DNA of 64,000 nt, taken from NCBI GenBank assembly GCA_030142905.1, contig JASJOG010000032.1:1040001-1104000 (forward strand), written 5' to 3'. The notes under the pieces were generated by a model. The model worked only from the letters and a program-made list of their open reading frames with translations. It searched no databases and was not told where the DNA came from. A program made the position numbers and the translations under genes. Source of the stretch: Heliopora coerulea. Lineage: Eukaryota; Cnidaria; Anthozoa; Scleralcyonacea; Helioporidae. Of this stretch, positions 4,771 to 25,255 are shown piece by piece. Position 1 is the first letter of the stretch. Each line of letters opens with the position of its first letter.

Positions 4771-5716
4771 TTTGCAGATGTTTTGGTGGTACAGGTGGAA
4801 AGGGAATCTTTGATCATGATGACTTATTTACATATTAAATATAGCTTTGGTCATCCTGGATCATTCAATCCTGCTGTTATAATGAACAAAGAAGCAGGAT
4901 CTTCAGAATCTACAAGCATTAAAAAGAAAAAGACGACAAAAATTTCAAACTACTTTCCAAAAGGTGAGCAATGCTTGGTTCCACCGGCAGGTTAGTTTAT
5001 TTGTTTGTGTGTAGATACGTTAATTTGCTATTTATCTTTATTTAAAAAAAAAAAGCACTTTTAGAATCTATTATCAAAAATTCCTTGGACTCAATTATCA
5101 TGACAGGTGGAAACAACAATATCTGTAACCAACCAATTACCTCCTTCCACTCAACGGCAAAATAAATTGTCTAGTGAAGTTGAAGGTGTAAACATAATAG
5201 GAAAAAGGCCCATTTCAACCAAACTGGTTTACTGAATTTCCCTGGCTTCACTATACCAAAATAAAAAAAAGACTGCATTGTGCTTTGTTTGTGTACAAAA
5301 AAAATGTAAAATCAAATCTTTGCACAACTAGAAATAAAGAATCTGCTTTCATTTCAGAAGGCTTTTCCAACCGGAAAAAAGTTTGGACACAATTCAAAGA
5401 ACATCAAATTTCTGATTGTCATAAGATGGCAGTTGAGTACCACACTAGTATTCCCAAAACATATGGTAATATAATTGAAATATCCAATGATATTGCAAAA
5501 AAGATTATGGCAACAAACTACAAGTGTTTCATTAAAATCTTGGAGCATTTGCAATATCTTGCACAACAAGGTCAGGCCATTCAAGGTCATGCTGATGATG
5601 AATCAAATCTCATTCATCTCCTTAAACTAAGGGGGAAAGGTGATCCTTGCCTTTCTGAGTGGTTAGAGAAGAAAGAAGATAAGTACATGTCACACAATAT
5701 TCAAACTGAAGTCATA
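4771..5716 (+). pseudogene. hAT transposase (ZMYM/DUF4371 type), amino-terminal half
   Basis: Pieces match the start of a TTF/ZMYM-type hAT transposase. A basic KKKKTTKISNYF segment lies at about 4920, a FPWLHYTK-type segment near 5240, and a zinc-finger-like segment (C...C ... GFSNRKKVWTQFKEHQ) follows after a frameshift in an A-run near 5306. The 147-codon frame from 5285 is then cut by the Polinton after 5716. It resumes at 23651 on the far side, so this transposon was the Polinton's landing site. An intron-like gap lies between about 4990 and 5200. The element was probably already decaying, because other lesions exist outside the Polinton. Confidence 0.7.
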
Positions 5717-6147
5717 AGTAGTCTATAAAGTGGGGATTCCAGCACATTTTCAAATTTAATCAAAAATTTTCAAAGTGTCGTGGGGGGTTTCCTTTATATT
5801 GACGGCGCTACTTTCGGTTGCTTCGCTGCTGAGACCTCTAGTCGATGAGAACTTCATTCGATCGTTTACTTAACTTCCGGTCGCTTTCATGAATTTAATT
5901 ACGTTACAAAGAATTTCAACACATTTTAAAAACGGGTCAAAACTTTTCAAAGTGTCTTGGGGGAATAACCTAACACAGCAGGCTGATAAATTCCAAACAT
6001 TCCATACATGCTCAATCTCCCTAACAACTAGCCTCGCTCGATGTCAACAAAAAAACTATTTTCGGTTTGCTCAGTTGTTAGGGAGATTAGGCATGTATGG
6101 AATGCGGGGAAAGTCACTAAACGACTGGTGGGGGAATTACCTTTTTT
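5717..6147 (+). repeat. left terminal inverted repeat of Polinton 1 (431 bp)
   Basis: Matches the reverse complement of 23220-23650 along 431 bp without gaps. I count five mismatches, at 5780, 5830, 5843, 5856 and 5934. All are C/T or G/A changes in which one copy has CG. The repeat contains two copies of CAAAGTGTCNTGGGGG (near 5771 and 5950), a large internal hairpin and a decayed double-hairpin motif at about 5820-5850. There is no convincing gene in it. Confidence 0.95.
5999..6103. repeat. large hairpin inside the TIR
   Basis: Arms 5999-6029 and 6073-6103 are 31 nt each and complementary except for two adjacent positions. The loop is about 43 nt. The same structure is present in the right TIR. 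It could form a cruciform and act as a transposase or replication site; this is inference. Confidence 0.8.
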
Positions 6148-8010: not shown

Positions 8011-9204
8011 TTAAAATTGGATTGAAGATAAATCTTTATTTACAATGTTTAACAATCCATCACTTATCACAAATATATGACACATTACATTTGCAGAAAT
8101 AGCATTTTTTTAAATTTCTAACAATAATCCAGACTGTGTATTTACTAATTTTTTACCAGTTCCATAAACAAAGTTATCATCTAATGTTCTTAAATCCACA
8201 CATAATGCAAATGAATCTTTATAAAATTTTTCAATACTCATGATTGAATCACAGTCAGAATATCCGCAGTGAAATATTCTAAATGCTTCTTCAAAAAATC
8301 TTCTTTTCGGCATACCTTGGGAATATATGCTATTTGGGACTCCTTCAACACTAATTTTGACGTCTGTTATATTTGGATAAACAAATTGCTCACTATCTGT
8401 GATAGTTTTATTTCTAAATAACAGAACAACTGCTTTCATACTTTTCCTTGGGATATTTATGGTTTCATTATGTAAAGTTGCATCTTTATCCCATTCTACT
8501 GTTTTCATCAAAGTTACATAATTATATGATAATGATCTTCCTGTGGAGTAATTTGATAAAACATCAATTGCCAAGTCTTGATTTTCAATCGTTTCATACT
8601 CTAATTCTAAATTTTCCAATGTATATCCCCCAACACTTTCTCCACTTTGTGCTACCATAATTTCACTAGCTTTTGGAAAAGTTAAAATATATTGAAAATT
8701 GTTAATCATTCCATAAGGAGCATATAACCCATGATCTGAAAGTATTTTTTCTAATTTTAAACACTGTTTTGTTCCATAAATATCATACATTAATTTATCA
8801 CTAACTTTTTGTACATTTCCACTTGTTGTTCCACTATCATCTTTTGAAATTAATTTTCTGAGGTTTTCTCGGGCGATGCCGTATTCAACCATATCTGCTC
8901 TTTCAAATTCAGGCTTCCAAAGATCTTTGTAAATTTCTAGTAAAGATTCTCCACTATTATCATAAACAATTTCTCCAGCAAATTTAACAACCAATCTTTT
9001 CTTTAACAATTTTGATAAATTATTTAAAAACCACGATTTAGTATTTGCATTTTTAAAATTAAATAACAATTTTAATGAATCAGGAACAAGACACAAATTA
9101 GGATTTAATTTTGGAATATCTATATAAAGGTCTTCTTCAGGATTTGCTGAATTCGGATTCAAAGTTACAACATGTCTTGTTCTGTTTCCTTTAATTTCAC
9201 TCAT
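8011..9204 (-). pseudogene. probable major capsid protein, one late stop codon
   Basis: Frame from ATG 9204 runs 364 codons to a TAA at 8112-8110, then continues open for 32 more codons to a second TAA at 8013-8011. The continuation ends in a hydrophobic strand-like segment (CHIFVIS), so the first stop is likely a mutation. The protein is about 397 residues, rich in beta-type segments, with an FYKDSFALCVDLRTLDDN segment near the end. Size, position upstream of the ATPase and this end segment fit a Polinton-type jelly-roll capsid protein. There is no catalytic motif. The capsid assignment is by pattern and context; a structure prediction would settle it. Confidence 0.65.
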
Positions 9205-9316: not shown

Positions 9317-10729
9317 TCACTGCAGCTTCGCTGCTGAGACCTTCGGTCGATCACTATTCTGTTTTTTATTGTCCTTTCGGTATTCTTTGTCCTTTTGGTA
9401 TTCATTGTATAAAAAGTAAGTAATTGCAATAACTAATATCCATAAATTTTTAGCTAGAAAAGCAATACCTTTTGCACCCCATGATAATATTTGAGAAATT
9501 AAATTTAAAACTGCTGAAATGATTGCACCAAAATTTTTACCTATATTTGCAATTGCTTTTCCCAATTTTCCAACTGCATTTGCACCTTGTTTCAATACAC
9601 TTCTTGCCCTTATAACTATTGCTGTAATTATGCCTGCTACAGAAATAGCAACTGCTGATAAACCTAATAAATTTTCTTTTGCCCATTTTTTAAATCTTTC
9701 TAATCTTCCAAGGTCAGATTCTTCAGCATTTTCATTTAAAATTTGTATCCCTTCTTCACTGATTGGTCTTTCATTATTTTCAATTCTTGCTTTATCTACA
9801 TAAAGTTTTGCAATTTCTGAAAAACTTTTATATATACTTTTTTGGGGTTCAGCTGTTTCTAAATCAGATTTATTTTTCCAATATTCATATTCTTTATCAA
9901 ATGATTTAATTTTTTCACGTAAAACATTTTTTCTTTCATTTTCTGATAAATCAAGATAGTCTTTGCCACCAACCGGTGAGACAGCTTCTTCAAAATTTAA
10001 TAAACCTCTAAATTCTCTTAATTCATCTGAATCAAATAATGATCTTCTTGGATCATTTTCATCTTCAACTAATTTAATCAAGTTATTTTCATCAATTATT
10101 CTATTAACTTCATTATCAATTTGTGAAATTGTATCTTCAACTATTTTTTCTCTCTCGGTTTTTCTCATATCATAATTTCCCTCATTAGATATTTCTCCTA
10201 TTTTTTTATCTATAATATAATCTGGTGTTTTTTTATATTCTTGTTTTGCTTTTTCTAAAATATCTCTGAATTCATTAACATAATTCTTATTCCATTTTAC
10301 AAATAATTCTGGTTCATTGCCATCACTGACATTACCAATTTTTTTATCTTTGTAAATAATTGAAAAATTACCTTTTTCATTTCTTTCAAACCTAGTTTTT
10401 TCTAACAATATTGTATTATTTTCACCATTTTTCTTTTCAGGGATGAAATCAAATATTTTTTTGAAAGAATTTTTTTTACCAAAAGTCATTGATCTTTTAA
10501 CTCCTCCTAAATTTTTAAATTTTTTTAAAAAACCTTTAGACTTGGTGTTATCAGGGTCTTTAACTCTAGTTACTCTGGTGTTTTGGTCTGGGAGTAATAT
10601 AGTTGTTTCTCCAGTATCTAAATTTGTATCAGCAAAATTTCCCCCACTTGTTTCTCCCTCCTCACGGTCCTCACGTTCTTCTATATTTCTATCATTTAAT
10701 TCTATATCATCAAAACCGTTATTATCCAT
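9317..10729 (-). CDS. large Polinton protein with hydrophobic carboxy end
   Basis: An intact 470-residue frame; the start ATG at 10729 is preceded by ATAAAATAA. Residues 1-60 are very acidic, and about 70-350 are charged and helical. Residues about 350-450 contain several hydrophobic segments (LLGLSAVAISVAGIITAIVI, then two or three more with small residues). This layout suggests a membrane-active virion or membrane protein. The last dozen residues (SDRPKVSAAKLQ) are encoded by a double-hairpin insert and are nearly identical to a stretch of the 16912-17383 protein. It sits between integrase and capsid genes on the same strand. Exact function unknown. Confidence 0.7.
   Translation of the reverse strand: MDNNGFDDIELNDRNIEEREDREEGETSGGNFADTNLDTGETTILLPDQNTRVTRVKDPDNTKSKGFLKKFKNLGGVKRSMTFGKKNSFKKIFDFIPEKKNGENNTILLEKTRFERNEKGNFSIIYKDKKIGNVSDGNEPELFVKWNKNYVNEFRDILEKAKQEYKKTPDYIIDKKIGEISNEGNYDMRKTEREKIVEDTISQIDNEVNRIIDENNLIKLVEDENDPRRSLFDSDELREFRGLLNFEEAVSPVGGKDYLDLSENERKNVLREKIKSFDKEYEYWKNKSDLETAEPQKSIYKSFSEIAKLYVDKARIENNERPISEEGIQILNENAEESDLGRLERFKKWAKENLLGLSAVAISVAGIITAIVIRARSVLKQGANAVGKLGKAIANIGKNFGAIISAVLNLISQILSWGAKGIAFLAKNLWILVIAITYFLYNEYQKDKEYRKDNKKQNSDRPKVSAAKLQ
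9319..9353 (-). repeat. double-hairpin element in the 470-residue gene
   Basis: On the plus strand GCAGC-TTC-GCTGC (9322-9334), a 3-nt spacer TGA, then GACC-TTC-GGTC (9338-9348). Both hairpins have 3-nt loops. On the coding strand it encodes the final residues and stops at the gene end. The GC-rich insert stands out in AT-rich sequence. Confidence 0.85.
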
Positions 10730-10734
10730 TTATT

Positions 10735-11862
10735 TTATATGTTTTGAATATTTTCTTCTGGTATCCAAGAATTATGTTTATTGTCATAACCTTCCCACTT
10801 TACCAACACCATATTTTTTCCTTTCACTTTTTTCCTTTTTAATATTTTCTCTACTTTATATAAGTGATCTTTATCACTCACATCATTCACAGCAGACAAT
10901 TCCTGTTCATAAAATTTCCCAATAATTGGTTCTCCCTCAAGGTCTTCCACTTCATACATGTTTGGATCACCTCTAAATACTTTTACAATTTTAAAAATTT
11001 CTTCTGTAAAATTAGCTTCATAACCTTTTTTAAAGATATTTTTATATTTAGAAATCCTAACAGTATCACCAATTTTGAATTTAGGTAAAGGTAAATCTCC
11101 CAATGGATGACCATATAATGTATTCCAAACTTGGTCTTTGTTAGATTCATTTACATCAACAGGTTTCATTAATATACTTTTATGTTTAGTATTGTTATAA
11201 TTTTTTACAAGCTTTTTCAAAACGGAGGTCCAATTATAAGTTTTATTGTTGTAGAAATATTTCCACATGGATGTTTTTAAAGCTCGGTTAAATCTTTCAA
11301 CTATAGCTGCTTTTTTAACAGATTTTTAAGAAAAATATTTAACACCCTCATCACCAGTTTCTTTTAATATAGACTTTATGCCAACATTATAAAATTCTTT
11401 TCCTTCATCAAATTGAGCTACATTTGGGTATTTACCAAATCTTTTTTTGAATTTTCTAAGTAATTTATCAACAGCTATTGTCATGTTGTAAGTATCTTTT
11501 CTATAAACAGGAATAGCAAACGCGTATCGACTTAAAATTTCAACAGCTGTAAGAATCCAATAATAATCTTTATTATCTTTTTTATATTTTTTCATATCAA
11601 TTAAATCCATTTGTATTTGATCACCTAAATCTTTAACAAATGTTTTTTGAAATTTATGTCTTCTAACAATTGCTTTGTATCTTGTAAAAGTATTTTGTGT
11701 TTTTAACCAGTCTTGTACAATTTTTCTACTAACATTTAATCCCCTGTCTTTTGCTTTTTGATAAAGTCTTTCTGAAGATTGATAACCTGTTTTAGGATTG
11801 TAATAAATATCTCTTAACTCTTGTTCAATAACAAATTCATTATCACTCACTTTGTCGTTCAT
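10735..11862 (-). pseudogene. Polinton integrase with chromodomain, one in-frame stop
   Basis: One frame from ATG 11862 (context AAAAATAAATG) to the stop at 10735, interrupted only by a TAA at 11328-11326. It has a helical amino part, a DDE core with Asp in QMDLIDM and Asp in QFDEGKEF, and Glu in IVERFNR 37 codons after the second Asp. The stop lies between the second Asp and the Glu. A carboxy domain and a chromodomain (YKVEKILKRKK ... LVKWEGYDNKHNSWIPEENI) follow. The integrase inserts Polinton ends and makes the 6-bp duplication. The stop would remove the catalytic Glu, so this copy cannot move itself unless read through. Only 5 bp separate it from the 470-residue gene. Confidence 0.9.
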
Positions 11863-12010
11863 TTATTTTTATTAAAATAAATAATTAATTCACTTGAAAA
11901 AGCTGAGAAAAAATATTATGGAAAAAATTATGATTTTGTAGTGAACGAAAGAAAAATTTTGGATAAAAAATTTAAAGAAAGTTTTTTGAAAAAAATATCC
12001 ATATGCAGAC
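11863..12010 (+). other. divergent intergenic region with a short open frame
   Basis: Lies between the leftward integrase and the rightward block. A plus-strand open frame without ATG (about 11892-12030) encodes a Lys/Glu/Tyr-rich peptide and may be a gene relic. The region probably contains both divergent promoters. Confidence 0.35.
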
Positions 12011-13435
12011 ATGTCAAAATTTTACTTTGAGCATGATATTAATAAAGATGGAAGTTGGGAAAAAACAATAACATATTTCAAAAACCGCGAAGCGGCGAGC
12101 CAGGGGCTCGATGTTTCAACAGACATAAATTCAGATACATTTAAAAATGATCCAAATATGACAAAGTATCTTTATATTAACAAACCAATTCCCTCCGGTC
12201 AGCACTCCACTGAACCAAATTTTCCAAAAATTTGGAAACTTGGTAGAAGTATACAAGAATTACCCAGAGGAAAAAGACATGTTGGTTATACAGGGAAATC
12301 ATATTATTGGGATAATTTTCCTACACAATATGTTTTAAGTTATCCTATTAACCAGTTTAGGATTTATGTAAACAATACAGATTATTTTCAAAGCAATTTA
12401 CCTGGATTAAATATAACTACAGATGATAATGCAAAATGGTCTCTAAATGAATCATATTTTCAAAGCATTATAGGAACATAGATTGCAACTTATGGATGTG
12501 GAATTTCAATACAACATTTATTATTTTCAGCTGATGTTCCAAAACAAATTACATCATTTATGAGATTTCATCTATATTTTACAGTTAGAAGAATTATGTG
12601 GCAATTGAGAAATGGTGATGATAAAACATTTTATAAATTTAATGCTGGTTTTTTAAAAGATCACTATCCAAAATGGACATGGCAAGAAATTTCAGGAAAA
12701 AAAAGACACATTGGAGATTCTCATGCAATTGATATGACTACATCATGGAGAGGATATCAACACGGCCCTGGCCAAATTAGAGACACACAAAATGATTATA
12801 AAAAATTTATTCCAAAATTGTCAAATGGATTAATCAAAAAAGGAACAGAATTATTAAATCATTCCATTGAAGCATATCTTTATTCAATCCTTGGAGCACA
12901 AGCTAGAACTAGACAAAGTATTGTTTCAAATAGAGCTTCAGCATTGGAAACACAAAAAGTTTTTAGACAAATTTTTGAAGATTCTATAATAAATTATGAT
13001 ACGACAACATGGATTAATAATATGAATCAAGCAGTTTCATCAACAAATGTAGTTTTAAATACAGCTATAAGTCCAACTTTATGGTTAATTCCATCATCTT
13101 TAATAATTTTAAAGGAACCAATTGATGGTTATAATAATAAACTAAAAGTTTCATCAGAAAATATGATTTTTGGAATTAACAAAAATTTAAATTATTATGG
13201 AGTATCCAACACAAAAGATGTTAAACAACACAACATTGAATTAAAAAAACTTGAAAATTTAGATCAATCACAAAAACCTTTAGATAAATCACAAAAACCT
13301 TTAAAAAATAATAAATTACAAAAACCATTAAATAACTTTTCAACATCATCAAAAAATACTATGAAAAGCGAATCTTTTATTATTTTATCTTTATCGATTG
13401 TTGGTGGAATTTTAATATCAAAATATATATTATAA
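12011..13435 (+). pseudogene. 474-codon Polinton protein with tail anchor, one internal stop
   Basis: Two frames (12011-12481 and from 12482 on) are in the same phase, separated only by a TAG at 12479-12481. Together they form one gene to 13435. It has aromatic-rich beta-like sequence in the first 250 residues, a helical middle (SIEAYLYSILGAQARTR ...), a repeated QSQKPLDKSQKPL linker and a carboxy-terminal transmembrane segment (SFIILSLSIVGGILISKYIL). That end suggests a tail-anchored membrane or internal virion protein. A double hairpin is inserted near codon 26. It heads the rightward block of structural-type genes. Family not recognised. Confidence 0.6.
12085..12110 (+). repeat. double-hairpin element in the 474-codon gene
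   Basis: CCGC-GAA-GCGG (12085-12095) is followed at once by CGAGCC-AGG-GGCTCG (12096-12110). It is in frame and encodes NREAASQGLD. Local GC is far above the flanks. Confidence 0.85.
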
Positions 13436-13452
13436 AATATATTATAAAATAA

Positions 13453-14139
13453 ATGACAATATCTTTAAAAATCTTCATAACAAAAGATGAAAACTCTAAT
13501 AAAGTAATTTCATTAGATGAACCAATTATATTAAACAATTGCCATAAAATGTTTGTAAAGTCAGTAAGTATTTTTTGGAATTACGATAATTTGGATAAAA
13601 ATATTCATCATTATACTTATGATACACAGGGCGCTAATAGAAAAATTGACTTCAAATATGGATATTATACCTTTAATATTTTAAAAACTGAATTAGAAAA
13701 TGTCAATGCAATTGAACTGGAACAAATTGATTTTTCTGGAAAATGCACAATAAAATCAGATAAAACATTAAATTTACAAACATTTGGACCAATCATAGGA
13801 TTTCCAGAAAATAAAGTTATACAAGCAAATACATTAACAGAGAGTGACAGCGAGGTAAATATTAATAACAACTTGGAATATGTAAACATAAGCTGTAATA
13901 TGATTGATAAAAGTAAAAATTTTGTGGATGGTAAAAGAAGTAATGTACTTGTTCAAGTTCCAATAACAACAGAACAAACATTAAAAGGTAGTGTTTCTAA
14001 AATTTACCCACCTGAAGAAACAGGGCCGGGAGGAGGAATAAAATTATCAAATGGAATTTATAATGAATTAGAATTCAAAGTAGAAGGAAATAATTCATTA
14101 TCAATAGGAAATGTTTTGTTAGAAATTATTATAAAATAA
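13453..14139 (+). CDS. candidate penton or minor capsid protein
   Basis: An intact 228-residue frame started in AAAATAAATG. It is rich in predicted beta strands, with conserved-looking turns (FGPIIGFPENKVI, DGKRSNVLVQVPI) and a hydrophobic last strand. No transmembrane segment or enzyme motif. Its TAA stop touches the ATG of the fibre-like gene. Size, beta character and place beside fibre genes fit a single jelly-roll vertex protein, which Polintons carry next to the major capsid. This is inference; another structural role is possible. Confidence 0.5.
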   Translation: MTISLKIFITKDENSNKVISLDEPIILNNCHKMFVKSVSIFWNYDNLDKNIHHYTYDTQGANRKIDFKYGYYTFNILKTELENVNAIELEQIDFSGKCTIKSDKTLNLQTFGPIIGFPENKVIQANTLTESDSEVNINNNLEYVNISCNMIDKSKNFVDGKRSNVLVQVPITTEQTLKGSVSKIYPPEETGPGGGIKLSNGIYNELEFKVEGNNSLSIGNVLLEIIIK

Positions 14140-14142
14140 ATG
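14130..14142 (+). promoter_or_regulatory. TAAATG start context (example of a recurrent motif)
   Basis: The stop codon of one gene abuts the next start as TAAATG. The same A/T core with AATAAATG or AAATAAATG precedes starts at 6416, 13453, 15586, 16912, 17431, 17701, 18164 and, on the minus strand, 10729 and 11862. It resembles the TAAATG late initiator of poxviruses, where transcription starts at the start codon. That function here is inference; it could also be a translation context in AT-rich DNA. Confidence 0.5.
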
Positions 14143-14962
14143 AGTTTATTTTACGGATATGAAAAAGTTAACGATAATATAACAACAGGAGGTTTACCAA
14201 CAACAGGAGGGGATATGACAGGAGATATTAACATGGGTTCAAACCATATCATAACATCAGTTGACCCAACAAAAAGAGAACACCTTGCTAGAAAAAAATA
14301 TGTAGATGATTTAGTAAGAAGACACACAGATGTAGATTATCTATCAAGAAGAGGAGGTACAATGAGAGGAAATATTGATATGGGCCCTAATAAAATTACA
14401 ACAAATGTGAATCCTTCAAGTGATAAAGACCTTTCTAGAAAGAAATATGTAGATGATCAAGATTCTAGAAAATTATCCTTAACTGGTGGAACATTGTCAG
14501 GAAATATTAGCATGGGAAATCATAAAATTATAACAACTTCAGATCCTACAGGTGAAAAACATTTAGCAAGAAAAAAATATGTAGATAATCAAGATTCTAA
14601 AAAATTATCCCTAACTGGCGGAACATTGACAGGTGATGTTACAATTGGAAGTAATAAAATTATTTCTTCAACAAATCCTACACTTGAAACACATTTAGCG
14701 AGGAAGAAATACGTCGACGACCGTATTTATAATAGTTTAAACATTCTCAAAAAAGATGTTAGTTTTTCAATTTTGAAAGATAATTTTTCTTTGAAATTTC
14801 ATAATTTATGATTTGTTGTTTGAAAGAAATGGTGGAAAAGTAAAAGAACTAATTGATTATGGAATTGAAGGAAACAATTTTAAACAAACAACAAAAAGTC
14901 TTCAACCTTCCTTGTGTTTAGAAAGTGAAAAGGAAGATAATAAATATTTTTTAAAATTTAAT

Positions 14963-14985
14963 GGCGGAGCCAGCCCGCACAGCGG
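14963..14985 (+). repeat. double-hairpin element in fibre-like gene 1
   Basis: GGC-GGA-GCC (14963-14971), three bases, then CCGC-ACA-GCGG (14975-14985). It is in frame in the head domain and encodes GGASPHSGN. The arms are shorter than in other copies. Confidence 0.65.
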
Positions 14986-15252
14986 TAACAATAGAATGAT
15001 TTCAGATTCCAACATTAATCCAATATCAGGAAAAAAAGATATTGTAAATGTTTTTGTTGTTTATAAATTGAATTCTGTTCCTTCATCTGGAAGTGATTGG
15101 TTAAAAGGAGGAATTTTTGGACATGATAATGGGGGTTTTGACAGATTTGTTTGTTTTGCAAATCCAACTACAAAAGAATTAGTTATTGCTGGAGATAGTG
15201 CTAATTTTATCTGTATTGGTTCAAATCCTGTAAATCATAAAACACCAATTGC

Positions 15253-15271
15253 GGCCTTCAAACCGAAGGCC
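15253..15271 (+). repeat. single GC-rich hairpin in fibre-like gene 1
   Basis: GGCCTTC-AAACC-GAAGGCC, 7-bp arms and a 5-nt loop. It is in frame and encodes AAFKPKA. Probably a member of the same insert family with a longer loop. Confidence 0.6.
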
Positions 15272-15585
15272 AATGCTGGAGTTTTGAATAAATGGATATG
15301 TTTAAGTATTCATTGGGATATGTATACAACACCAAATAATAATGAAAGTAGTGTTTATTGTAATGGAAAAAAGTTAACATCTTTTACAACCAAGACTGTT
15401 TTAGGAGATACAACTTTAACAATTGGTGATATAAAAAACAACACAAATTCACCTTTTGATGGATCAATATCTTTCTTTTCAATTTTAAAACACGAGAAAA
15501 TGACAGAAAAAGAAATTTTGTTTTATCATTATGTTCTTTGTAATTTATACAACGTTGATCATAATCCTATAAATATATAAAATAA

Positions 15586-16746
15586 ATGAGTGTTATATTT
15601 AATGATGATTTTAGCTCAAAAAGAAAAAATTTCATTTTAAATGAATTTGATAAAAAATTATCTTTAACAGGCGGTACGATGACCGGCGATTTGACTATAA
15701 ACACAAATAAAATAATTTCAACAATTGATCCTATAGATGATAAACATTTGGCTCGAAAAAAATATGTGGATGATCAAGATGATACAAAATTGTCTTTATC
15801 TGGAGGAACAATGACTGGAGATTTGGATATGGGAAATCATAATATTCTTCATGCAGCAAATTATGTTCGATCTTCTGATCACCATGTTGTGACTAAAAAA
15901 TATGTGACAAATTTTTCATTTGCAAATACGGTTGCAAATATTTATAATTTACAAATGGATGATGAAGGAATTTTTGATGTGAAAGATGATGATAATTATA
16001 TAGAATATACTGGAAGCAATAAAAAGGTTGAAAAACTTTTCAATTTGTCAAGAAAAAAAGATTGGAATTTCAAACAAGATGATACAAACAAACAACCATT
16101 TTTCAAAAAATCCACAATTAATAATAATTTTTATTGTGTCCAATACCACACTGGTCTTGGATCAAACAGTAACAATTTACATTTAGTTAGTAAACAAGAT
16201 ATTTTAAGCAATCAACACTTGAATTTTTATTTTGTATATGGTTTAAAATCATTAAATTCGTCTAACAATGAGGTATCGTTGTTTAAAATCATAGATAATG
16301 AAACAGTAAGACAACCAACTCCTTTTAATTTTGGTATTTCTTATCGTAATTCATTATTATTTATCACAAATTCATCCGCGTCTGCAATTTCAAATAGCAG
16401 ATGGCAATTGAAAGCAAATGCAAAAGAAATAAACAAATTAATATGTCTTTCTGTACATTGGGATCAAAATAACCTCAGTGGTGGTAAAAAAGGAAAACTT
16501 TATGTGAATGGAAAAGAAATTGTTTCTTTCATTACAAATAGTAAATTATCTCACAATTCAAATACGAAATTTTATCTTGGATCAAAAAATAAAGACCACG
16601 GAAAAATGGATGGAGAAATATTATATGTATATGTTTCAACAAGAAAAATGAAATATCCAGAAATTGTTTTAAATCATTATCTTCTTTGTAAAAAATATGG
16701 TGTTGATTTTGACGAAGATGAAATATTAAAATATATAGCTAAATAA
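15586..16746 (+). CDS. fibre-like protein 2: two fibre repeats plus jelly-roll head
   Basis: An intact 386-residue frame starting in AAATAAATG, five bases after the first fibre gene. Residues about 25-105 hold two GGTMTGDL ... KKYVDDQ repeats. Residues about 120-380 form a beta-rich head with the same order of motifs as the first gene (LICLSVHWDQ, LYVNGKEI, ending in HYLLCKKYGVDF). It is a tandem paralogue with fewer stalk repeats and a diverged head. Likely a trimeric attachment spike; such stalk repeats are known from phage fibres. It has no lesion, unlike its neighbour. Confidence 0.75.
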   Translation: MSVIFNDDFSSKRKNFILNEFDKKLSLTGGTMTGDLTINTNKIISTIDPIDDKHLARKKYVDDQDDTKLSLSGGTMTGDLDMGNHNILHAANYVRSSDHHVVTKKYVTNFSFANTVANIYNLQMDDEGIFDVKDDDNYIEYTGSNKKVEKLFNLSRKKDWNFKQDDTNKQPFFKKSTINNNFYCVQYHTGLGSNSNNLHLVSKQDILSNQHLNFYFVYGLKSLNSSNNEVSLFKIIDNETVRQPTPFNFGISYRNSLLFITNSSASAISNSRWQLKANAKEINKLICLSVHWDQNNLSGGKKGKLYVNGKEIVSFITNSKLSHNSNTKFYLGSKNKDHGKMDGEILYVYVSTRKMKYPEIVLNHYLLCKKYGVDFDEDEILKYIAK

Positions 16747-16824
16747 ATTTTAAATACATTTTGAATAACCACAAATGTTATTTAAAATTTACTTGACTTT
16801 TACTTGACTTTATTTAAAAATAAC

Positions 16825-16898
16825 TTTAAATAAATTTTAAATAAATTTTAAATAAATTTTAAATAAATTTTAAATAAATTTTAAATAAATTTTAAATA
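16825..16898 (+). repeat. 11-bp tandem repeat upstream of a start codon
   Basis: About six to seven copies of TTTTAAATAAA in a row, ending 13 bp before the ATG at 16912. Each unit contains TAAATA, part of the element's usual start context, so this could be an expanded promoter or a simple slippage product. Confidence 0.85.
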
Positions 16899-16911
16899 CA
16901 CTTATAAATAA

Positions 16912-17383
16912 ATGAGTGAACAAAGTGAAGCTAAAATAACAGCAGTTGAAAAATCTGTTAAAGCAAAAGACCCAAGAAAAGTAGAATTGGGAAAAAGGTT
17001 GGCAAAAAATTTCAAGAGAAGCAAAAGAAAGAAAAGCAAAACAGCGACAGATGGAAGAATCTAAAGCCGAATCAGAAGCTTCTAAATTAGAGAAAGAAAA
17101 AGGAGAAATAATCAATTATTTAGATTATAGACATTTTATTGGAGTTTTAGGGCTTGTTATTTCTATTGGTGGATTATATTATTCATATAAAAGAGACAAA
17201 AGAGAAAGCGAACGAAGTGATCGACCAGAGGTCTCAGCAGCGAAGCTGCAGCAAAGTGATCAAAGTGATCAAAGGGAAGAAAAAAACAACCAAGCTTACA
17301 AGTTCACAAATAATGTAAAAAATAAGAATGACTATGAAATTAATAAAAGTGGTCCATCAAGGTGTCCTATTGAAAACCTGTAA
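16912..17383 (+). pseudogene. small single-span membrane protein, frameshifted
   Basis: From ATG 16912 (TATAAATAAATG) a Lys/Glu-rich frame runs about 30 codons to a six-A run at 17004-17009. After it the sense continues in another frame to 17383. That frame has a charged helix, then one transmembrane span (HFIGVLGLVISIGGLYYSY) followed by a basic cytosolic-type end. A double hairpin adds RPEVSAAKLQ near residue 105 of the combined protein. Without the extra A it would be about 157 residues. It belongs to a run of small membrane proteins (to 18108). Family not named. Confidence 0.6.
17223..17249 (+). repeat. double-hairpin element in the membrane-protein gene
   Basis: GACC-AGA-GGTC (17223-17233), spacer TCA, GCAGC-GAA-GCTGC (17237-17249). 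It is nearly identical to the copy at 9322-9348 read on the minus strand. Both are read in the same codon phase, giving RPxVSAAKLQ in two unrelated proteins. Confidence 0.9.
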
Positions 17384-17400
17384 GGCCCTTACAGGTTTTT
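17372..17400 (+). terminator. strong 3' hairpin after the membrane-protein gene
   Basis: AAAACCTGTAAG-GCC-CTTACAGGTTTT: 12-bp arms and a 3-nt loop, with the TAA stop inside the first arm and an A/T run after. Hairpins at gene ends mark 3' ends of transcripts in mimivirus-type viruses. A similar role here is inference. Confidence 0.6.
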
Positions 17401-17430
17401 AATAAAAAAAATTTTTATGTATATAAATAA

Positions 17431-17682
17431 ATGACCGAAATGAATAGAAAAGAAGCTATGAATGAATTATATGATTCTACACTAATTACATTGGGTGCTG
17501 TGGGAATTGGAATGATAACAAGAAGAGTATTTAGTGATGGTTTGTCAACTCCGGCTAGTTTAGTGCCTACTTTAAAACTTACAGCAGCTGTAGGATTATC
17601 AACACTTGGAATTAAATATGTGCAAGACAAAAAGTGGATTCCTGAGAACCCTTTTAAACAATCAAAAATAAAACAAAAATAG
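17431..17682 (+). CDS. small membrane protein
   Basis: An intact 83-residue frame with start context TATAAATAAATG. Two hydrophobic segments (TLITLGAVGIGMI and TLKLTAAVGLSTLGI) separated by a short polar loop, then a basic tail. It is the second of three small membrane-type genes in a row. No enzymatic motif. Possibly a virion membrane or holin-like component; this is only by shape. Confidence 0.55.
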   Translation: MTEMNRKEAMNELYDSTLITLGAVGIGMITRRVFSDGLSTPASLVPTLKLTAAVGLSTLGIKYVQDKKWIPENPFKQSKIKQK

Positions 17683-17700
17683 AAAATTTTTTTTAAATAA

Positions 17701-18108
17701 ATGGAAACAGTAGTTGGTGGATTATTTAATGCAGTCGCTTTTGCAGGTGCTGGATTTTTATTTTCAAAATTAAATCATTCTGGATATGAAAAAGAGATAA
17801 AAAGACATAATGAAGCAATGGAAAAACTTAGTGAAGCAAAGGAAAAATGGTATGAGGGGCAAGTAAAAAGAAAAGAAGAAATTGAAAAATGAAGGCAGCA
17901 ATTATCTGATGCAAATGCTGATATAAATAAAACAAATATGTCTTTGAAAAATCTTGCTGAAATAAATAATCGTTATAAATATTTAAAAGAAAAAGCAAAT
18001 GAAGAAGAAAGGGAACCTCCAAAATTAGAAGATTATTATAAACCTTCGGATGAAATGAAAGAATATCAAAATGTTGCTTTTTTTCTTGTTGGTCTTTCAG
18101 GAGGTTAA
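17701..18108 (+). pseudogene. small membrane protein with coiled coil, one internal stop
   Basis: Starts in TTTAAATAAATG. Residues 1-25 are a hydrophobic amino end (GGLFNAVAFAGAGFLFSKL), then a charged helix. A TGA at 17890-17892 interrupts the frame, which goes on in phase to a TAA at 18108. The second part has a Lys/Glu helix, then EPPKLEDYYKPSDE and a short hydrophobic end. The stop could come from CGA to TGA at a CpG. The whole would be about 135 residues. Family not named. Confidence 0.6.
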
Positions 18109-18163
18109 GTGGTTTATAAAATTATTTAAAAATTTTTCTTTAAAAAAAAAATCTCTTAAATAA

Positions 18164-18511
18164 ATGGAAAACCATTATCAACAAAAAACATTTAAACAAT
18201 TGTGGAATATTGCAAGAGAAAGAAAAATAAAATATTATAAAACTTTTAACAAAAATCAACTTCAAGAAATGCTTAGATTTGAAATTAGCAAACCAAATGA
18301 AAAGTATGAGAAATATTGTAGAGAAAAAATGAAAAACCCAGTCCCAGTAATAGCTATAAATAGAGCAACTGGTGAAATCTTAAATTTTAAAAGTCTTGGA
18401 TCTGCTGCAAAAAATTTTAATAAAAATGCGGGAAGTATAAAATATAGAATTAATAATAAAAAAGATTTGAAAATTAATGGGCAAGAATTTTTGATTTTTT
18501 ATGACTGTTGA
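18164..18511 (+). CDS. SAP-like plus NUMOD1-like DNA-binding protein
   Basis: An intact 115-residue frame after CTTAAATAAATG. Residues about 8-37 (TFKQLWNIARERKIKYYKTF ...) look like a SAP/LEM-type helix pair. Residues about 62-101 (VIAINRATGEILNFKSLGSA and on) match the NUMOD1 pattern, a small helix-turn-helix module usually fused to homing endonucleases. No nuclease motif is attached. It may bind element DNA, for replication, packaging or regulation. Call is by pattern. Confidence 0.6.
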   Translation: MENHYQQKTFKQLWNIARERKIKYYKTFNKNQLQEMLRFEISKPNEKYEKYCREKMKNPVPVIAINRATGEILNFKSLGSAAKNFNKNAGSIKYRINNKKDLKINGQEFLIFYDC

Positions 18512-18530
18512 ACTGAAAGTTCAGCAAAGC
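18510..18530 (+). terminator. 3' hairpin after the NUMOD1-like gene
   Basis: TTGAAC-TGAAA-GTTCAG: about 6-bp arms with one T-G pair, right at the stop codon, followed by a long T-run. Possibly an RNA 3'-end signal like the one at 17372-17400. Confidence 0.45.
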
Positions 18531-18584
18531 TATTTTTTTTTTTTTTAATTTTTTTGTTTAAAGGAAAATTTATATATAATAAAA

Positions 18585-18897
18585 ATGCATAATTGAAAAA
18601 TATTTAAAACAAGAAGATTATGAAAATAATGATAAAGAATATATTTATTATGTTTTTCTTAATAAAATTGCTGAAATTACAGGTGAAGGAATATTACCAC
18701 ATCATGAATTTACAATAAATTATGATGAAAAATATTGTATTTTTAACGAATATGAAATTGAATATGGAGAATATGATGAAGAAGAAACTCTTATAGAATC
18801 TTATAAAATTATATTGAAACCGAAAGAAATATTAAAATCACATTTAAAAAAATCATATTCATCATTTAATATTTTTATATTAAAAAAAATTCAGTAA
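18585..18897 (+). pseudogene. small acidic protein, frame shifted at its start
   Basis: The only ATG with a proper upstream region (ATATAATAAAAATG at 18585) is in another frame from the long open stretch, which runs from about 18589 to the TAA at 18895-18897. One base near 18588 must have been gained or lost, or the start is not ATG. The product of about 100 residues is rich in Glu, Tyr and Ile, with a very acidic YEIEYGEYDEEE segment. Family not recognised. Confidence 0.45.
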
Positions 18898-20128
18898 TCA
18901 GTTATTTTTTTTTTTTAAATCTAATCACGTGACCACAACCCGAAAAATTTTTTTTTTTTTTGTCTTTAAAAAAAAAACATATATAATAAAAGATGAATAT
19001 CGAGCAAAGTTCAAAACGCGGTCGTGGAAGACCAAGAAAATATCCTTTTGGTTCTTTTGTAGGACCAAGACGTGAAAATAGAGGAAGGCCAGTAACATTA
19101 CCTCCAGAAAAAAAGACAAAATGAACGAATTGTTGTTAGAAATAGAGGAAGACCAAGAAAAAATCAAGAAATTTCTTCATCAATTTTAGACAAAACAATT
19201 ACAGAAGAAAAATTACAAGAACCTTTAAGACCAAAAAAAAATTTAAACATTAATTTACTTGAAAGATCAAAACAAAAAGCAAATGATTTATTTAACAAGA
19301 GTAAAGAAAAAATACTTAATTTATTTGATAAATATACACCCTTGAATAATAGAAAAGAAAAAATAACAAATTGGTATAATCATCTGAAAGATAATGTTTT
19401 AGATATATTTAACAAAATACAACGTAAGGTTTCAACCCCAACTGCAAAATTTAAATTGGATAAAGAAGCTTTGAATGTAACGAAAAGATATGAATTGAAT
19501 TTGAATTGTCTTTATATGATCCTTTGACTCTTTTGAAAAAAATAAAACCATTGGTAATTAAAAAATTCAAAAAATATCCAAGCACAAAACAACAAATAAC
19601 TCTTGTGTGTTTGATGTCAAAAACAAACCCCGCAACAGGAGAACAAACTGTGGATAATGCTCATTTTCATAGTTACTATGAAGAAATTTTTGAAGGAAAT
19701 AATTTTGACGAAATATATGAAAAAATGACGCAAAAAGTTATTTTGAGTTTTGAAGAATTTTTAAAAAATTCAAGTTTGTGGAAATTTCATAAAGGTTTGA
19801 AAGTAATTCTCAATATTAATGAAATTAAAAGATTACTTGCTTCATCTTATATTCCTTTACCAGAGTTTTTAAAAAATAAAAAAGCAATTATCAACCCAGA
19901 AAATGATGATCAAAAGTGTTTATTATGGTGTGTTGTAATAAATTAACTTTTGAAAACTAACCCCAACTTAAAAAATCCTGGAAGAATTACAAAAATTTTG
20001 AAAAAGAAAGCTGAGAATTTTAATGTTAAAGATGTGAAATTTCCATGTGGATTTTCTGATATTGATAAATTTGAAAAAAATAATAACATTCCAATTAATT
20101 TATTTGGATATAACAGCAAATCCAACGG

Positions 20129-20142
20129 CAGCAGAGCTGCTG
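20129..20142 (+). repeat. small hairpin in polB
   Basis: CAGCAG-AG-CTGCTG, or CAGC-AGA-GCTG read as a 3-nt loop. It is in frame and encodes SRAA. An almost identical copy lies at 22596-22606. Confidence 0.55.
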
Positions 20143-20544
20143 ATGAAGGTCAGAAGGGTGGTAAAGCTGGGGAAATTTTTACTTTGAGAGTAAGTAAGGT
20201 TGATTTGGATCGACAAGAAAACCGACTGCGTGTAAATATATTGTTAATAACTAATGAAAATGGGGATCAACATTATTGTTTGATTAAAAATAAGAGTAGA
20301 TTATTTTCAAGTCAGGTTAGTAAACACAAAGAAAAAACACATATTTGCGATAATTGCTTACAACATTTTAGTAAAGAAAATGTTTACAAAAATCATTTAG
20401 AATATTGTAAAGAGTATGAATGTGGAAAAACTGTTTATCCAGATAAAGGAGAAAAATTAAAGTTTAGAAATTTTGAGAGAATGCATGATGTTCCATTTGT
20501 AATTTATGCAGATTTTGAATGTTGTCTTAAAAATATAAACGATC

Positions 20545-20572
20545 GACCGGAGGTCACACCGCTTAGCGGTGT
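20545..20572 (+). repeat. double-hairpin element in polB exonuclease domain
   Basis: GACC-GGA-GGTC (20545-20555) directly followed by ACACCGC-TTA-GCGGTGT (20556-20572). It encodes DRPEVTPLSGVG, beginning with the same DRPEV as the copy at 17223. It sits shortly after the DFE motif and is probably a surface loop insertion. Confidence 0.9.
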
Positions 20573-21188
20573 AGGAGATAAAACAAAACAAACCCAAAAA
20601 CATGAACCATCTGGATATAGTTATTTGATAAAATGTTTTGATGATAATTTATATAAACCAAAATTAGTAAAATGTTCTAAAAAACCCAGTGAACCTGATT
20701 TTGATATTTCATTAAAATTTGTAAAAAGTTTAGAAAATGATATTAAAAAAATATATGAGAAATTTAAATTTTCAAAAAAGATAATATTAAGTGAAAAGGA
20801 TAAAGTAGATTTTAGAACTGCAGAAAATTGTTATGCTTGTGGAATCAAATTTGATAAAAAAGTTATGGATCATTGTCATTACACAGGAAAATATCGTGGA
20901 GCTGCTTGTGTTAGTTGTAATTCAAAAATGAAAAATCCAAAATTTATCCCAGTTATATTTCATAATTTACAAAACTATGACAGTCATTTGTTTATTAAAA
21001 ATCTTGGTGTTTCAGAAGGTGAAATTGATTGTATACCAAACACTGAGGAAAAATACATTTCATTTACAAAAGAATTTATTGTTGGTAAATATCAAAAAAC
21101 AGACATAATAACTAAAAAACAACTACAAAATAAATCAAAAGAAAATATTATTGAGTGTGAAGAATTAATTATTGACAGTGAAACGACA

Positions 21189-21201
21189 GGGCCGCAGGTC
21201 C
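21189..21201 (+). repeat. small hairpin in polB
   Basis: GGGCC-GCA-GGTCC with one G-T pair and a 3-nt loop. It is in frame and encodes TGPQVQ. Confidence 0.5.
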
Positions 21202-21355
21202 AGTATAAAATTAAAGAAATTGTTGAAGTAAAAAGAAAAATTAGATTTATTGATAGTTTTAAATTTATGCAAACTAGTTTATCAAATTTAGTTAATAATT
21301 TAGATAAAAATGAATTAAATATGTTAAAGAAATTTTATAAAAATGAAAAACAAAC

Positions 21356-21384
21356 TGAGACCGGAGGCCTCAGCCCCAAAGGGG
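21356..21384 (+). repeat. double-hairpin element in polB
   Basis: TGAG(A)CC-GGA-GG(C)CTCA (21356-21372, one mismatch) followed by CCCC-AAA-GGGG (21374-21384). It is in frame and encodes TETGGLSPKGE. The order is the same as in the other copies. Confidence 0.8.
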
Positions 21385-23219: not shown

Positions 23220-23650
23220 AAAAAAGGTAATTCCCCCACCAGTCGTTTAGTGACTTTCCCCGCATTCCATACATGCCTAATCTCCCTAACAACTGAGCAA
23301 ACCGAAAATAGTTTTTTTGTTGACATCGAGCGAGGCTAGTTGTTAGGGAGATTGAGCATGTATGGAATGTTTGGAATTTATCAGCCTGCTGTGTTAGGTT
23401 ATTCCCCCAAGACACTTTGAAAAGTTTTGACCTGTTTTTAAAATGTGTTGAAATTCTTTGTAACGTAATTAAATTCATGAAAGCGACCGGAAGTTAAGTA
23501 AACGATCGAACGAAGTTCTCATCAACTAGAGGTCTCGGCAGCGAAGCAACCGAAAGTAGCGCCGTCAATATAAAGGAAACCCCCCATGACACTTTGAAAA
23601 TTTTTGATTAAATTTGAAAATGTGCTGGAATCCCCACTTTATAGACTACT
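23220..23650 (-). repeat. right terminal inverted repeat of Polinton 1 (431 bp)
   Basis: Reverse complement of 5717-6147 with five CpG-type differences. It ends in GACTACT followed by the GTCATA duplication. It starts 56 bp after the polB stop, with one small hairpin (23174-23184) between. Confidence 0.95.
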
Positions 23651-25255
23651 GTCATATCCATCATGGCTAATATTGTAATCGGGGATGTAGTGTTAGATAT
23701 TCAAAATGGGTTTGGCTCTATCATCTGTGATGAACACACCAATTTAAGCAGCAAGGAACATTTAACCACATGTATTTGATGGGTTCATAAATATCTAGAT
23801 GTGCATGAAGATTTTGTTTTATTTTTCCTCATACCCGATATTTCTGCCCAGACAATTGAGTCAATGAGACTGGATTTGTCATTAACTTACCTTAGGGAGC
23901 AATGCTTTGACGGAGCCAACAATATGCCTGGAGAAAAAAAAAAAAAGGGTAGCCAAGAGAATCCAGGACCTTCAACCAACTCACTGTCTTGGACATTCGT
24001 TAAGCCTAAGTGCAAAGGACACAACCAAGAACTGTAAGTTGCTATCAAATACTATGGACACAGCAAAAGAAGCTGTAACCCTAATAAAGTTTCCTCCAAA
24101 ATGTGAAAATCTACTAGGAGAAATAAAAGAGGGTATATCAGCAGCCAATGACATCAAAAAATTGTCCCACAAGATGGACAGTACATGCATCGTGTTTTCA
24201 ACAAATCTTGGACAATTACTCAGCTCTTCAAGAGTGGATTGTTTGCCTTGATGAAAAACTTCAACCGGACAATTTGTTGGCAAGCTTAACTGAAAACCTA
24301 TGACTGCATCTGTTTTCTCGTACAGGTAACTTATTAAAAACATTGCAAATGACAATGATGTGCACTGTGAGTGGACTACGGATCGCTAACAGTACAAAAT
24401 AAGTTTTGCAAAAGATACAGAATGTTGATAGCTTCAAGCTATTCTGTGAAACATTTCTGCTAAAGAGCAAAGACTACCCATCAATTTCTGAACTGATGCT
24501 ACCTCAAAACAGACATGCACCTAACAGGAGTGAGATCAGAACTGTGACACCATCATATCCTGCCACATGCTCAAGATCATTATAGATGTATATACTTTGA
24601 AGCCCTTGACTTGATGATAAATGCTATTGACTATCACTTCAAGCAGCAAACTTTGATGCATATGCAAAGATGGAGTCTTTTCTGGTAAAGGCTTTAAACT
24701 CTGGACATTATTCAGCAGAGTTAAATTTCATTAAGACAAATTATAGTGATGATGTGCACAATGGAGCATTAATTGCCCAGCTCAGGATCTTTAAAAGTAA
24801 TCATGAAAACGAAGGATGACAACTTTCAATTTGTATGTTTTGATGGCATCCTGTTAAAAATTAAAGAGTTGCCTGAACCTGAAAAGAACGTAAGTCACAT
24901 CATCACAATCTGCAAGCTTCTCTTAGTTAATCCAGCAACTAGTGCAAGTGGCAAGAGGTCCACTATATGAAGATTGGAGACATGGCTTCATTCAACAATA
25001 AGGCAAGAAAGGTTCAACAACCTGACAATACTGAACATCTGTAGAGACAGAACAGACGAACTTTCCCTTGTCGATGTTGCCAACGAATTAATTGTGCATA
25101 AAGATAATAGGAAAATAAATTTTGGCCATTTTACACAATCTGACTTTCCTATTTTGTTATTATTTTATGGTGATCTACATTGTACAAGTGAAGCATGCAT
25201 ACAGCATTCATATACTTTTAAACAAGGTTTCCCTAAGCAAACTGAGTTTGCTTAG
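23651..25255 (+). pseudogene. hAT transposase (ZMYM/DUF4371 type), carboxy half
   Basis: Right after the duplicated GTCATA the frame of the 5' half resumes and continues as hAT core: VHKYLDVHEDF, IPDISAQTIES, then REQCFDGANNMPG with a frameshift at the poly-A near 23935. A dimerisation-type end lies at about 24974-25255 (TIRQERFNNLTILNICRDRTDEL). Several stops and shifts interrupt it (for example TGA near 23778). With the segment at 4771-5716 this forms one split pseudogene. Confidence 0.75.

Follow-up and report, generated by a model that had tools for sequence, protein, structure and literature searches.

The genes of a Polinton in Heliopora coerulea contain pairs of adjacent GC-rich hairpins, which raises the question of whether these are mobile inserts, products of local synthesis, or ordinary parts of the genes. 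Polintons are considered ancestral to many eukaryotic DNA viruses. Hairpin-forming micro-elements are, to our knowledge, documented from bacteria and mitochondria, and how they move is mostly unsolved. The original prediction, made from one genomic window (the whole stretch of 64,000 nt analyzed here), proposed a family of double-hairpin inserts inside Polinton genes that keeps its shape rather than its sequence.

Carrier Polinton and double hairpins in the window

One Polinton of 17,934 nt (17.9 kb), with 431-bp inverted repeats and a 6-bp target duplication, was delimited in the window:

5711..5716, no strand: left target site duplication GTCATA
5717..6147, plus strand: terminal inverted repeat of the Polinton on the left (431 bp, of which 426 match its right counterpart)
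23220..23650, minus strand: right terminal inverted repeat of the Polinton
23651..23656, no strand: right target site duplication GTCATA

In addition to the long inverted repeats and the target duplication, pPolB homologues and an integrase core with a chromodomain place it among the Polintons. Its capsid labels are putative and follow gene order; a Pfam scan of the genes so labeled gave no Pfam match. At least 125 pPolB matches were scored among 1,156 candidates in the same genome, indicating many related Polintons.

A strict scan, which required two perfect stems of 4 bp or more, loops of 3 nt, a spacer of at most 6, and five or more G/C in the arms, found five double hairpins in the Polinton, at 9322–9348, 12085–12110, 14962–14985, 17223–17249, and 20545–20572. 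A chance origin is rejected by 60 dinucleotide shuffles of the 17,934 nt (mean 0.083, maximum two), and the remaining 46,066 nt of the window contain no strict double hairpin (0.37 expected). The stretch 21356–21384 is also a double hairpin, skipped by the scan because of one A.C mismatch. Hairpins with 3-nt loops are present where they had been predicted. A scan for the 30-nt form described below also matches the host DNA of the window (46 kb) at two places. The sites of the Polinton are the following:

5817..5846, minus strand: decayed element in the left inverted repeat (model R1, 29.6 bits; second stem broken)
9322..9351, minus strand: canonical 30-nt double hairpin at the 3' end of gene 9317–10729 (50.4 bits; sense to the gene)
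12085..12112, minus strand: variant double hairpin in the capsid-like gene (28 vs 10 nt in seven of 10 copies)
12189..12212, minus strand: GC-rich insert of 24 nt belonging to a second type (absent from five of 10 copies, 0 vs 24 nt)
14962..14985, plus strand: short-armed double hairpin of 24 nt in lectin-like gene 1 (0 vs 24 nt in four of six copies)
17220..17249, plus strand: canonical 30-nt double hairpin in the small membrane-protein-like gene (49.1 bits)
20114..20155, plus strand: insert with a single hairpin (20128–20140) in the pPolB gene (42 vs 3 nt in L046)
20542..20572, plus strand: variant element in pPolB (33 vs 9 nt in nine of the 12 copies listed, 17 in total)
21184..21201, plus strand: short GC-rich insert in pPolB that forms a single hairpin (seven of the 12 copies listed have 6 nt against 18 here)
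21355..21384, plus strand: double hairpin of variant form in pPolB (net +27 nt; seven of the 12 copies listed have 5 nt against 32 here)
23505..23521, plus strand: ATCGAACGAAGTTCTCA, a first-hairpin unit within the right inverted repeat (19.8 bits; adjoins a decayed element)

The main unit is 30 nt, longer than the hairpin spans first noted; its copies at 9322–9351 (minus strand) and 17220–17249 (plus strand) are one element in opposite directions, each sense to its own gene. Two copies retain both flanks of the former site: L038, which lacks the element (0 vs 30 nt, with flanks 84–86% identical), and L041, which has it. The latter site sits in a 57-nt block that is missing in L033, L048, and L061 (12 of 20 copies listed). 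The copies empty at 12189..12212 are L031, L034, L035, L045, and L048, and a close relative of this insert stands elsewhere in L046 in the opposite orientation; those empty at 14962..14985 are L030, L032, L033, and L043. The 20114..20155 site varies among other copies, and its insert is missing from the protein homologues listed. At 20542..20572, the first hairpin is canonical and the second is longer; this site and 12085, with net gains of 24 and 18 nt instead of 30, are classed as variants. The window holds several shorter variants, and at several variant sites the 30-nt model gives hardly any score. The spot at 21355..21384 holds either the canonical 30-nt element (L030, L048, L068, and L072) or nothing in other copies.

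Sequence has been gained, relative to other copies in the genome, at 9322, 12085, 14962, 17220, 20114 (around the hairpin predicted at 20129), 20542, 21184, and 21356. The single hairpin at 22596, also proposed as an insert, is not one (13 vs 13 nt in seven of seven copies), and the one at 23174 is a possible insert that keeps its 13 nt in four of nine copies, being shorter in four and longer in one. Comparison with homologous proteins and copies rejects conserved protein sequence at the insert sites, though not at 22596. The inserts do lie in genes, as predicted, but not in genes only: the non-coding inverted repeats carry the element too, intact in those of copies L037 and L039 and decayed in the left repeat of the window.

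Empty sites and the 30-nt architecture

The comparison of 1,250 pairs of copies at least 88% identical within the same 430-Mb genome yielded 16 rows of clean 30-nt indels, which form 11 groups (nine places by manual reading). All 16 rows fold with 8–9 of nine pairs although they were not selected for pairing, and all 11 groups share the main form of exactly 30 nt: ATC, a hairpin with a 4-bp stem and a 3-nt loop, TCA, and a hairpin with a 5-bp stem and a 3-nt loop, both loops being closed by a C-G pair. Two adjacent GC-rich hairpins are thus present or absent between relatives, with a boundary ambiguity of 0–2 nt in the clean 30-nt cases and no target duplication. The youngest 30-nt gains separate pairs that are 98.4–98.6% identical (L055/L047; L044 and L032 vs L038/L040).

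The skeleton of this form has 621 exact matches genome-wide (430 Mb), against none for the reversed pattern used as a control, none for a 32-nt version with one stem length changed, and 11 for a 28-nt version, mostly one sequence with its second part unpaired. The pattern itself fixes four of the nine pairs; across the five free pairs, full pairing is absent in 23 of the 100 matches listed. It is the clean-indel and skeleton tests, neither of them selected for pairing, that carry the weight, because the sample of 28 canonical 30-mers was so selected. Stem covariation gave 97.2% of cells paired, 123 double-change cells vs 40.9 after shuffling, and a score of 0.508 vs 0.115 shuffled and at most 0.087 slid. 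Since the stems change in concert, it is the fold rather than the sequence that is kept. Three lines of evidence uphold the prediction that shape is maintained: this covariation, the occurrence of elements in each of the three reading frames, and the strictly kept 30-nt layout. Folded as RNA, 49 of the 68 distinct elements are predicted to adopt the design and the others are not; folded alone as DNA, four of four tested do so, with modest z (−1.6 to −2.7).

Such stems could also be made on the spot, by a polymerase that folds back its 3' end and copies itself (a quasi-palindrome or Pol theta-like event), with nothing mobile involved. Pol theta is known to extend stem-loops from two terminal base pairs, which may explain inverted-repeat repair events (PMC11292364); moreover, GC-rich inserts of 9–27 nt are common in these copies, some with 3-nt loops, and the stems keep pairing. 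However, the empty site has neither arm, the length is held strictly at 30 nt across the genome (621 matches vs 0 and 11), and an identical 30-mer, with ATC and TCA constant, is found at numerous sites unrelated to one another. Local synthesis is therefore disfavored for the 30-nt class and improbable as a full account, but it may explain the single short hairpins and arm repair.

Spread, target sites, and nesting

The 30-mer ATCGACCAGAGGTCTCAGCAGCGAAGCTGC occurs 31 times at many unrelated sites among the loci collected, and different sites with the element have only the 30 nt in common, their flanks being unrelated. Unrelated flanks also reject tandem-repeat slippage for the 30-nt class, and the presence of the element on many separate contigs rejects an assembly error. 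Among the merged non-nested sites, the next base is A in 24 of 26 and the previous base is G or C in 21 of 26, in a sample of 26–28 sites that was drawn from related copies and loosely merged. Elements also enter one another: a nested insertion separates L042 from L048, L089 and L090 have a 30-nt element inside an older one like those of L081/L086, and 22 of 105 elements stand immediately behind a further first hairpin plus TC. All 80 places with inspected surroundings lie in or beside Polinton DNA (40 of 41 from one set and 20 of 100 listed from each of two others, both 20-place samples being hand-picked across the listed contigs, not random).

Ectopic recombination could spread hairpins among Polintons as recombination or gene-conversion tracts without dedicated movement, and the pPolB matches counted above mean that templates are ample. 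In exact register, a paired change of the first stem was found between copies at two places (L066 and L079 vs L082; L057 vs L078), which fits such copying and may reflect hairpin repair, conversion, or repeat insertion; the elements of L033 and L091 occupy neighboring sites, not the same register. Conversion, however, shifts inserts between homologous positions and not to new ones, and the sites share only the 30 nt, so this explanation has little probability.

Orientation and reading frame

Merged non-nested sites are sense to the gene in 22 cases and antisense in three. The sense frames are open, and the antisense orientation has a stop in one of its three frames. The sense bias may be due to selection rather than to mechanism; the direction of genes can largely not be separated from that of replication, since most genes of a Polinton are oriented outwards. 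Clean GC-rich indels between copies, collapsed to sites, are multiples of three in 81 of 84 cases, but this length alone proves little because AT-rich indels often are so too (41 of 52 sites); the uncollapsed rows give 116 of 121 and 68 of 93, respectively. The expected empty sites with lengths divisible by three were recovered in relatives, both in proteins and, among copies up to 98.6% identical, in DNA.

The sense bias, the multiples of three, and the open sense frames would also suit inserts selected as useful peptide linkers or mRNA signals. This is unlikely, as all three frames are used (RPEVSAAKL at 17220; by manual reading, STGGLSSKAA in L048 at the 21356 site and IGQSPQQQSC in L036), the arms alter amino acids freely, and copies lie in non-coding inverted repeats.

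Proposed movement of the element

The double-hairpin copies very probably constitute a mobile family, given that the same element has been gained in unrelated places whose empty counterparts are clean. The best overall explanation, and a likely one, is a 30-nt fold-defined family confined to Polintons, with a main form, variants, and a proposed route of movement. The route itself, a single-strand and hairpin-guided insertion, is put forward tentatively, at somewhat less than even chances. The moving form would be a folded single strand. A hairpin-recognizing nuclease or ligase of Polinton or host origin would cut at C^A, on the 3' side of the hairpins, and would join the cut strand to single-stranded Polinton DNA wherever an S^A is exposed, either in the course of protein-primed strand-displacement replication or where transcription has opened the coding strand. 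Insertion on the transcription-opened strand could account for the sense bias, the length divisible by three and the open sense frames could let the element persist in genes, and the arms could diversify in concert because one hairpin arm can template the repair of the other.

A bolder reading, and a slightly more doubtful one than the route, is a separate class of mobile DNA: noncoding, 30 nt long, defined by its fold, moving as a folded single strand to S^A sites while Polinton DNA is replicated or transcribed, self-nesting, and with stems self-templated at exact length. If true, this class would parasitize a virus-like transposon and would rank with the smallest mobile elements known; Polintons would carry their own micro-parasites, and the fold could be a unit of selection in mobile DNA whose sequence changes freely. 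Hundreds of copies in one nuclear genome, with exact boundaries, empty sites, nesting, and a target preference, make mechanisms testable.

Occurrence beyond this genome

Exact and skeleton scans of viral contigs gave no match to the element, and a close pPolB search in these contigs returned nothing useful. The Polinton-like contigs L001–L020 contain no full element. The distant environmental contig L002, with a pPolB 33% identical, has a 21-nt match, a hint that the age and range of the element may exceed those of a single host; a search for relatives of the L002 gene found only that gene itself. Element-like 6-residue words occur in only one (P0121) of 242 homologous proteins, and the reversed-protein control gave one word.

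Comparison with known systems

The likeness to Rickettsia palindromic elements (RPEs) and mitochondrial double-hairpin elements, raised in the original prediction, is fair in the sense that the Polinton element appears to work like these and like REPs, with membership in none of them established. RPEs are roughly 100–150 bp long. They are bacterial, transposable palindromic DNA within protein genes that the protein tolerates, have been called selfish, and lose repeat identity over time (PMC6649704). The Polinton element is likewise a palindromic insert in protein genes that keeps the frame, but it is shorter, with two hairpins in a strict 30-nt architecture whose arms are hypervariable yet covarying, and it is confined to a eukaryotic virus-like transposon, with S^A as its target.

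REPs are palindromes of 20–40 bp, some of them intragenic, which have been hypothesized to be miniature transposons. The Polinton stems are flanked by ATC, TCA, and a following A, with no GTAG or CGTC tetranucleotide (the REP foot) beside them, and no RAYT or Y1 domain was found among the Polinton ORFs scanned; in contrast to the REP/RAYT system (IS200/IS605-like Y1), the element is a fixed 30-nt double hairpin in a eukaryotic nuclear provirus. It also differs from MITEs, which have terminal inverted repeats and a fixed-length target duplication, in having two internal hairpins and no end-to-end pairing.

Fungal and sponge mitochondrial elements consist of hairpin pairs with structurally constrained stems, and mobility has been inferred for Allomyces; those of sponges are mainly intergenic, with conserved stems and changes in the loops (PMC2800124). 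The Polinton element shares with them two neighboring GC-rich hairpins that some relatives have and others lack, but its stems vary in concert on a fixed skeleton, and its carrier is not mitochondrial: it is a Polinton that lies in large contigs and has an integrase, pPolB, inverted repeats, and a target duplication. Magnusiomyces mitochondria have many palindromic translational-bypassing inserts in protein genes (PMC6649704; PMC5009743); these are described as disrupting frames and staying untranslated, whereas the Polinton elements are 3n and open in the sense frames. Among the papers listed on Polintons with palindromes, hairpins, or inverted repeats, no title or abstract opening concerns such inserts.

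The carrier Polinton

The window is nuclear-type DNA of approximately 35% GC from an assembly of 429.8 Mb, and its AT-rich block at 6-23 kb (21-30% GC per kb) is a Polinton with the following termini:

5717-6147 and 23220-23650: terminal inverted repeats, identity 426/431
5711-5716 and 23651-23656: target duplication GTCATA

A domain scan revealed an integrase core and a chromodomain in the Polinton ORFs and an endonuclease VII domain inside the ORF of the DNA polymerase gene (pPolB), which has 4,720 homologues among 7,992 scored candidates; the gene names capsid, membrane-protein and lectin-like are inferred labels. The Polinton is partly decayed, with several ORFs interrupted. It belongs to a type found in cnidarians, since the best relative of its 8110-9204 protein with a species name, at 63% identity, comes from Paramuricea clavata, an octocoral; other contigs reach up to 88% over the full length. 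The genome is Polinton-rich: among 1,156 candidates, at least 125 were scored as pPolB matches, and many pPolB frames are long and open.

Each terminal inverted repeat contains a 32-nt inverted repeat (30/32; 5998-6029 and 6073-6104) that could form a large cruciform. The 14140-16746 region contains 132-nt tandem repeats and has weak lectin-like similarity (Laminin_G_3, below the curated cut-off), possibly encoding virion surface proteins. A terminator- or poly(A)-like palindrome, AAACCTGTAAG..CTTACAGGTTT, follows the small membrane-protein-like gene at 17369-17402 and is no triloop insert. Tandem units of the ACACACATGTG type vary in number in the pPolB gene near window position 20220 (loci L032, L036, L042, L044, L054, and L058 of the same genome).

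Hairpin excess and anatomy of the element

The 30-nt double-hairpin element represents a genuine, unusually clean family of fold-defined inserts in Polintons, whose members are gained at unrelated sites, have a strict length, a covarying fold and a target preference, and nest. The double hairpins with 3-nt loops that the original prediction placed in the Polinton were borne out: five strict cases lie in its 17.9 kb, where 0.083 were expected, and the remaining 46 kb of the window has none. The enrichment peaks at triloops, and a lesser one appears at 6 nt.

Hairpins with GC-rich stems by loop size in 230,617 nt (window Polinton and loci fetched from the same genome because they bear the element; orthologous copies included)
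Loop (nt): observed; in shuffles
2: 38; 18
3: 264; 14
4: 36; 7
5: 36; 14
6: 75; 12
7: 14; 12

The element is laid out as ATC, GNNC-loop-GNNC, TCA, and GNNNC-loop-GNNNC. A scan for this design without fixed letters (at least 8/9 pairs, GC at least 13/30, both registers counted) gave 141 matches in the fetched loci; two shuffled sets gave 3 each, and 46 kb of host DNA yielded 2. Exact matches to the skeleton ATCGNNCNNNGNNCTCAGNNNCNNNGNNNC number 621 across the genome; its reversed pattern and the version with a 5-bp first stem have none, and that with a 4-bp second stem has 11, mostly one non-pairing sequence. Among 100 listed of the 621 places, the five unconstrained pairs were all complementary in 77, four in 18, and three in 5. 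In the 68 distinct elements of this sample, double-sided pair changes filled 123 cells versus 40.9 after shuffling; the covariation score of 0.508 (0.115 shuffled, at most 0.087 with the partner slid) agrees with the earlier view that shape is kept rather than sequence. As DNA, 4/4 tested elements are predicted to form the design alone (-4.9 to -7.0 kcal/mol, z -1.6 to -2.7); as RNA, 49/68 are. The GCGAAGC core is a known DNA mini-hairpin of very high stability.

Insertion evidence and empty sites

At four places in the pPolB ORF, matching inserts were absent from all 35 homologues shown (120 aligned); at the 20545 site, two homologous proteins (P0006 and P0020) contain extra residues of another kind. 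The pPolB inserts are 47% GC versus 25% across the remaining ORF. A DNA comparison of 1,250 gene-piece pairs, each from copies with 88% identity or more, produced 486 rows of clean indels; collapsed to sites, lengths were multiples of three in 81/84 GC-rich and 41/52 AT-rich indels. Empty sites with such lengths, as had been anticipated, were found in both proteins and DNA. Clean 30-nt indels, selected by length and clean flanks only, comprised 16 rows in 11 groups, and all 16 rows have the same two-hairpin design (8 or 9 of 9 pairs). The window sites compare with other copies as follows:

9322 (minus strand): exact empty site in 1/2 copies
12085: net gain of 18 nt
12189: exact empty site in 5/10 copies
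14962: exact empty site in 4/6 copies
17220 (plus strand): within a 57-nt block absent from three copies
20114: net gain of 39 nt relative to L046
20542: net gain of 24 nt
21184: net gain of 12 nt
21356: net gain of 27 nt

Single hairpins had also been proposed as inserts, which the net gains at 20114 (hairpin 20129) and 21184 (hairpin 21189) uphold; the 22596 hairpin was rejected on comparison with other copies, and at 23174 the copies vary, with 13 nt kept in 4/9, a shorter stretch in 4 and a longer one in 1. The hairpin at 15250-15274 in lectin-like gene 1 is no insert: its 25 nt are kept in 6/6 copies compared, the stem mostly still paired despite differing letters. A second insert type of 24 nt occurs at 12189-12212 and in L046 near 12534, in opposite orientations, both in the capsid-like gene.

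Probable mobility, target, and orientation

The 30-nt inserts are very probably mobile. Their most frequent version, ATCGACCAGAGGTCTCAGCAGCGAAGCTGC, has 31 copies in the fetched loci, at many unrelated sites. An A follows the insert in 26/28 sites (24/26 merged non-nested), and a G or C precedes it in 23/28 (21/26); no target duplication was seen at these insert boundaries, ambiguous by 0-2 nt. Nesting occurs, with 22/105 elements directly following another first hairpin plus TC. In L042, a 30-nt element lies within the spacer of one present alone in L048; in L089 and L090, the interrupted part is the first loop, and the outer element resembles those of L081/L086. An intact element, nested in this way, also occurs in the inverted repeats of L037 and L039; those of the window carry decayed versions.

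Inside genes, 14 sites are sense and 1 antisense; near genes, 24 are sense and 5 antisense, with 2 sites elsewhere. In sense, the frames are open (2 stops across 204), and antisense reading always meets a stop in one of its frames; if stops were the only thing selected against, approximately 60% of sites should be sense. The observed 38/44 exceeds this (one-sided p ~1e-4, the sites not being fully independent). All three reading frames are used, so what is conserved is not the peptide.

Occurrence in and beyond the genome

All 80 inspected places lie in or beside Polinton DNA: 40/41 from a first search (one on contig 208 left out), 20 author-picked across contigs from 100 listed for a second pattern (141 matches), and 20 more from 100 listed skeleton matches (621). 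Even with Polintons at a few per cent of the genome, which is a guess, their abundance would not account for 80/80. The full element was not found in viral contigs (two patterns) or in 20 Polinton-like contigs from elsewhere. One of the latter, environmental contig L002 (pPolB 33% identical), shares 21 identical nt at 513-533 (minus) with the beginning of an element variant from this genome. The match is in frame and in sense, has 9-nt direct repeats ACAAACGAT on either side, and scores a rough model E-value of 2.4e-4. The homologous protein P0121 (658-bp contig) has SSFGLSSKAA in the 17220 gene region, the frame-2 reading of the L071 element; it is absent from P0122.

Proposed mechanism

The moving form may be a folded single strand that would be cleaved at C^A after a hairpin and ligated at an S^A site (G/C before A) where Polinton DNA is exposed. 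A nuclease reading hairpin plus foot, as in IS200/REP, would fit both the constant ATC and TCA segments and the use of the element's own TC^A spacer as a target. No mobilising enzyme was found among the Polinton ORFs scanned; candidates would be the endonuclease VII domain in the pPolB ORF, the small 18164-18508 protein (weak Rho_N and NUMOD1 similarity, both below curated cut-offs), and host enzymes. Exact-register elements with a paired first-stem change occur at two places (L066 and L079 versus L082; L057 versus L078). Template switching inside a hairpin could give concerted arm change; it is discussed for nematomorph palindromes in passages of PMC6649704.

Comparison with known systems

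No description of such inserts in Polintons was found in the parts covered of PMC2800124, PMC11292364, PMC6649704, PMC10120064, PMC3733652, and PMC5009743 or in abstract beginnings, sources that include few subscription journals. The element works similarly to REPs and to mitochondrial double-hairpin elements, but it lacks a defining feature of each that was tested here. The likeness originally drawn to the mitochondrial and Rickettsia palindromic elements holds as one of similar working, the latter resembling it in behaviour.
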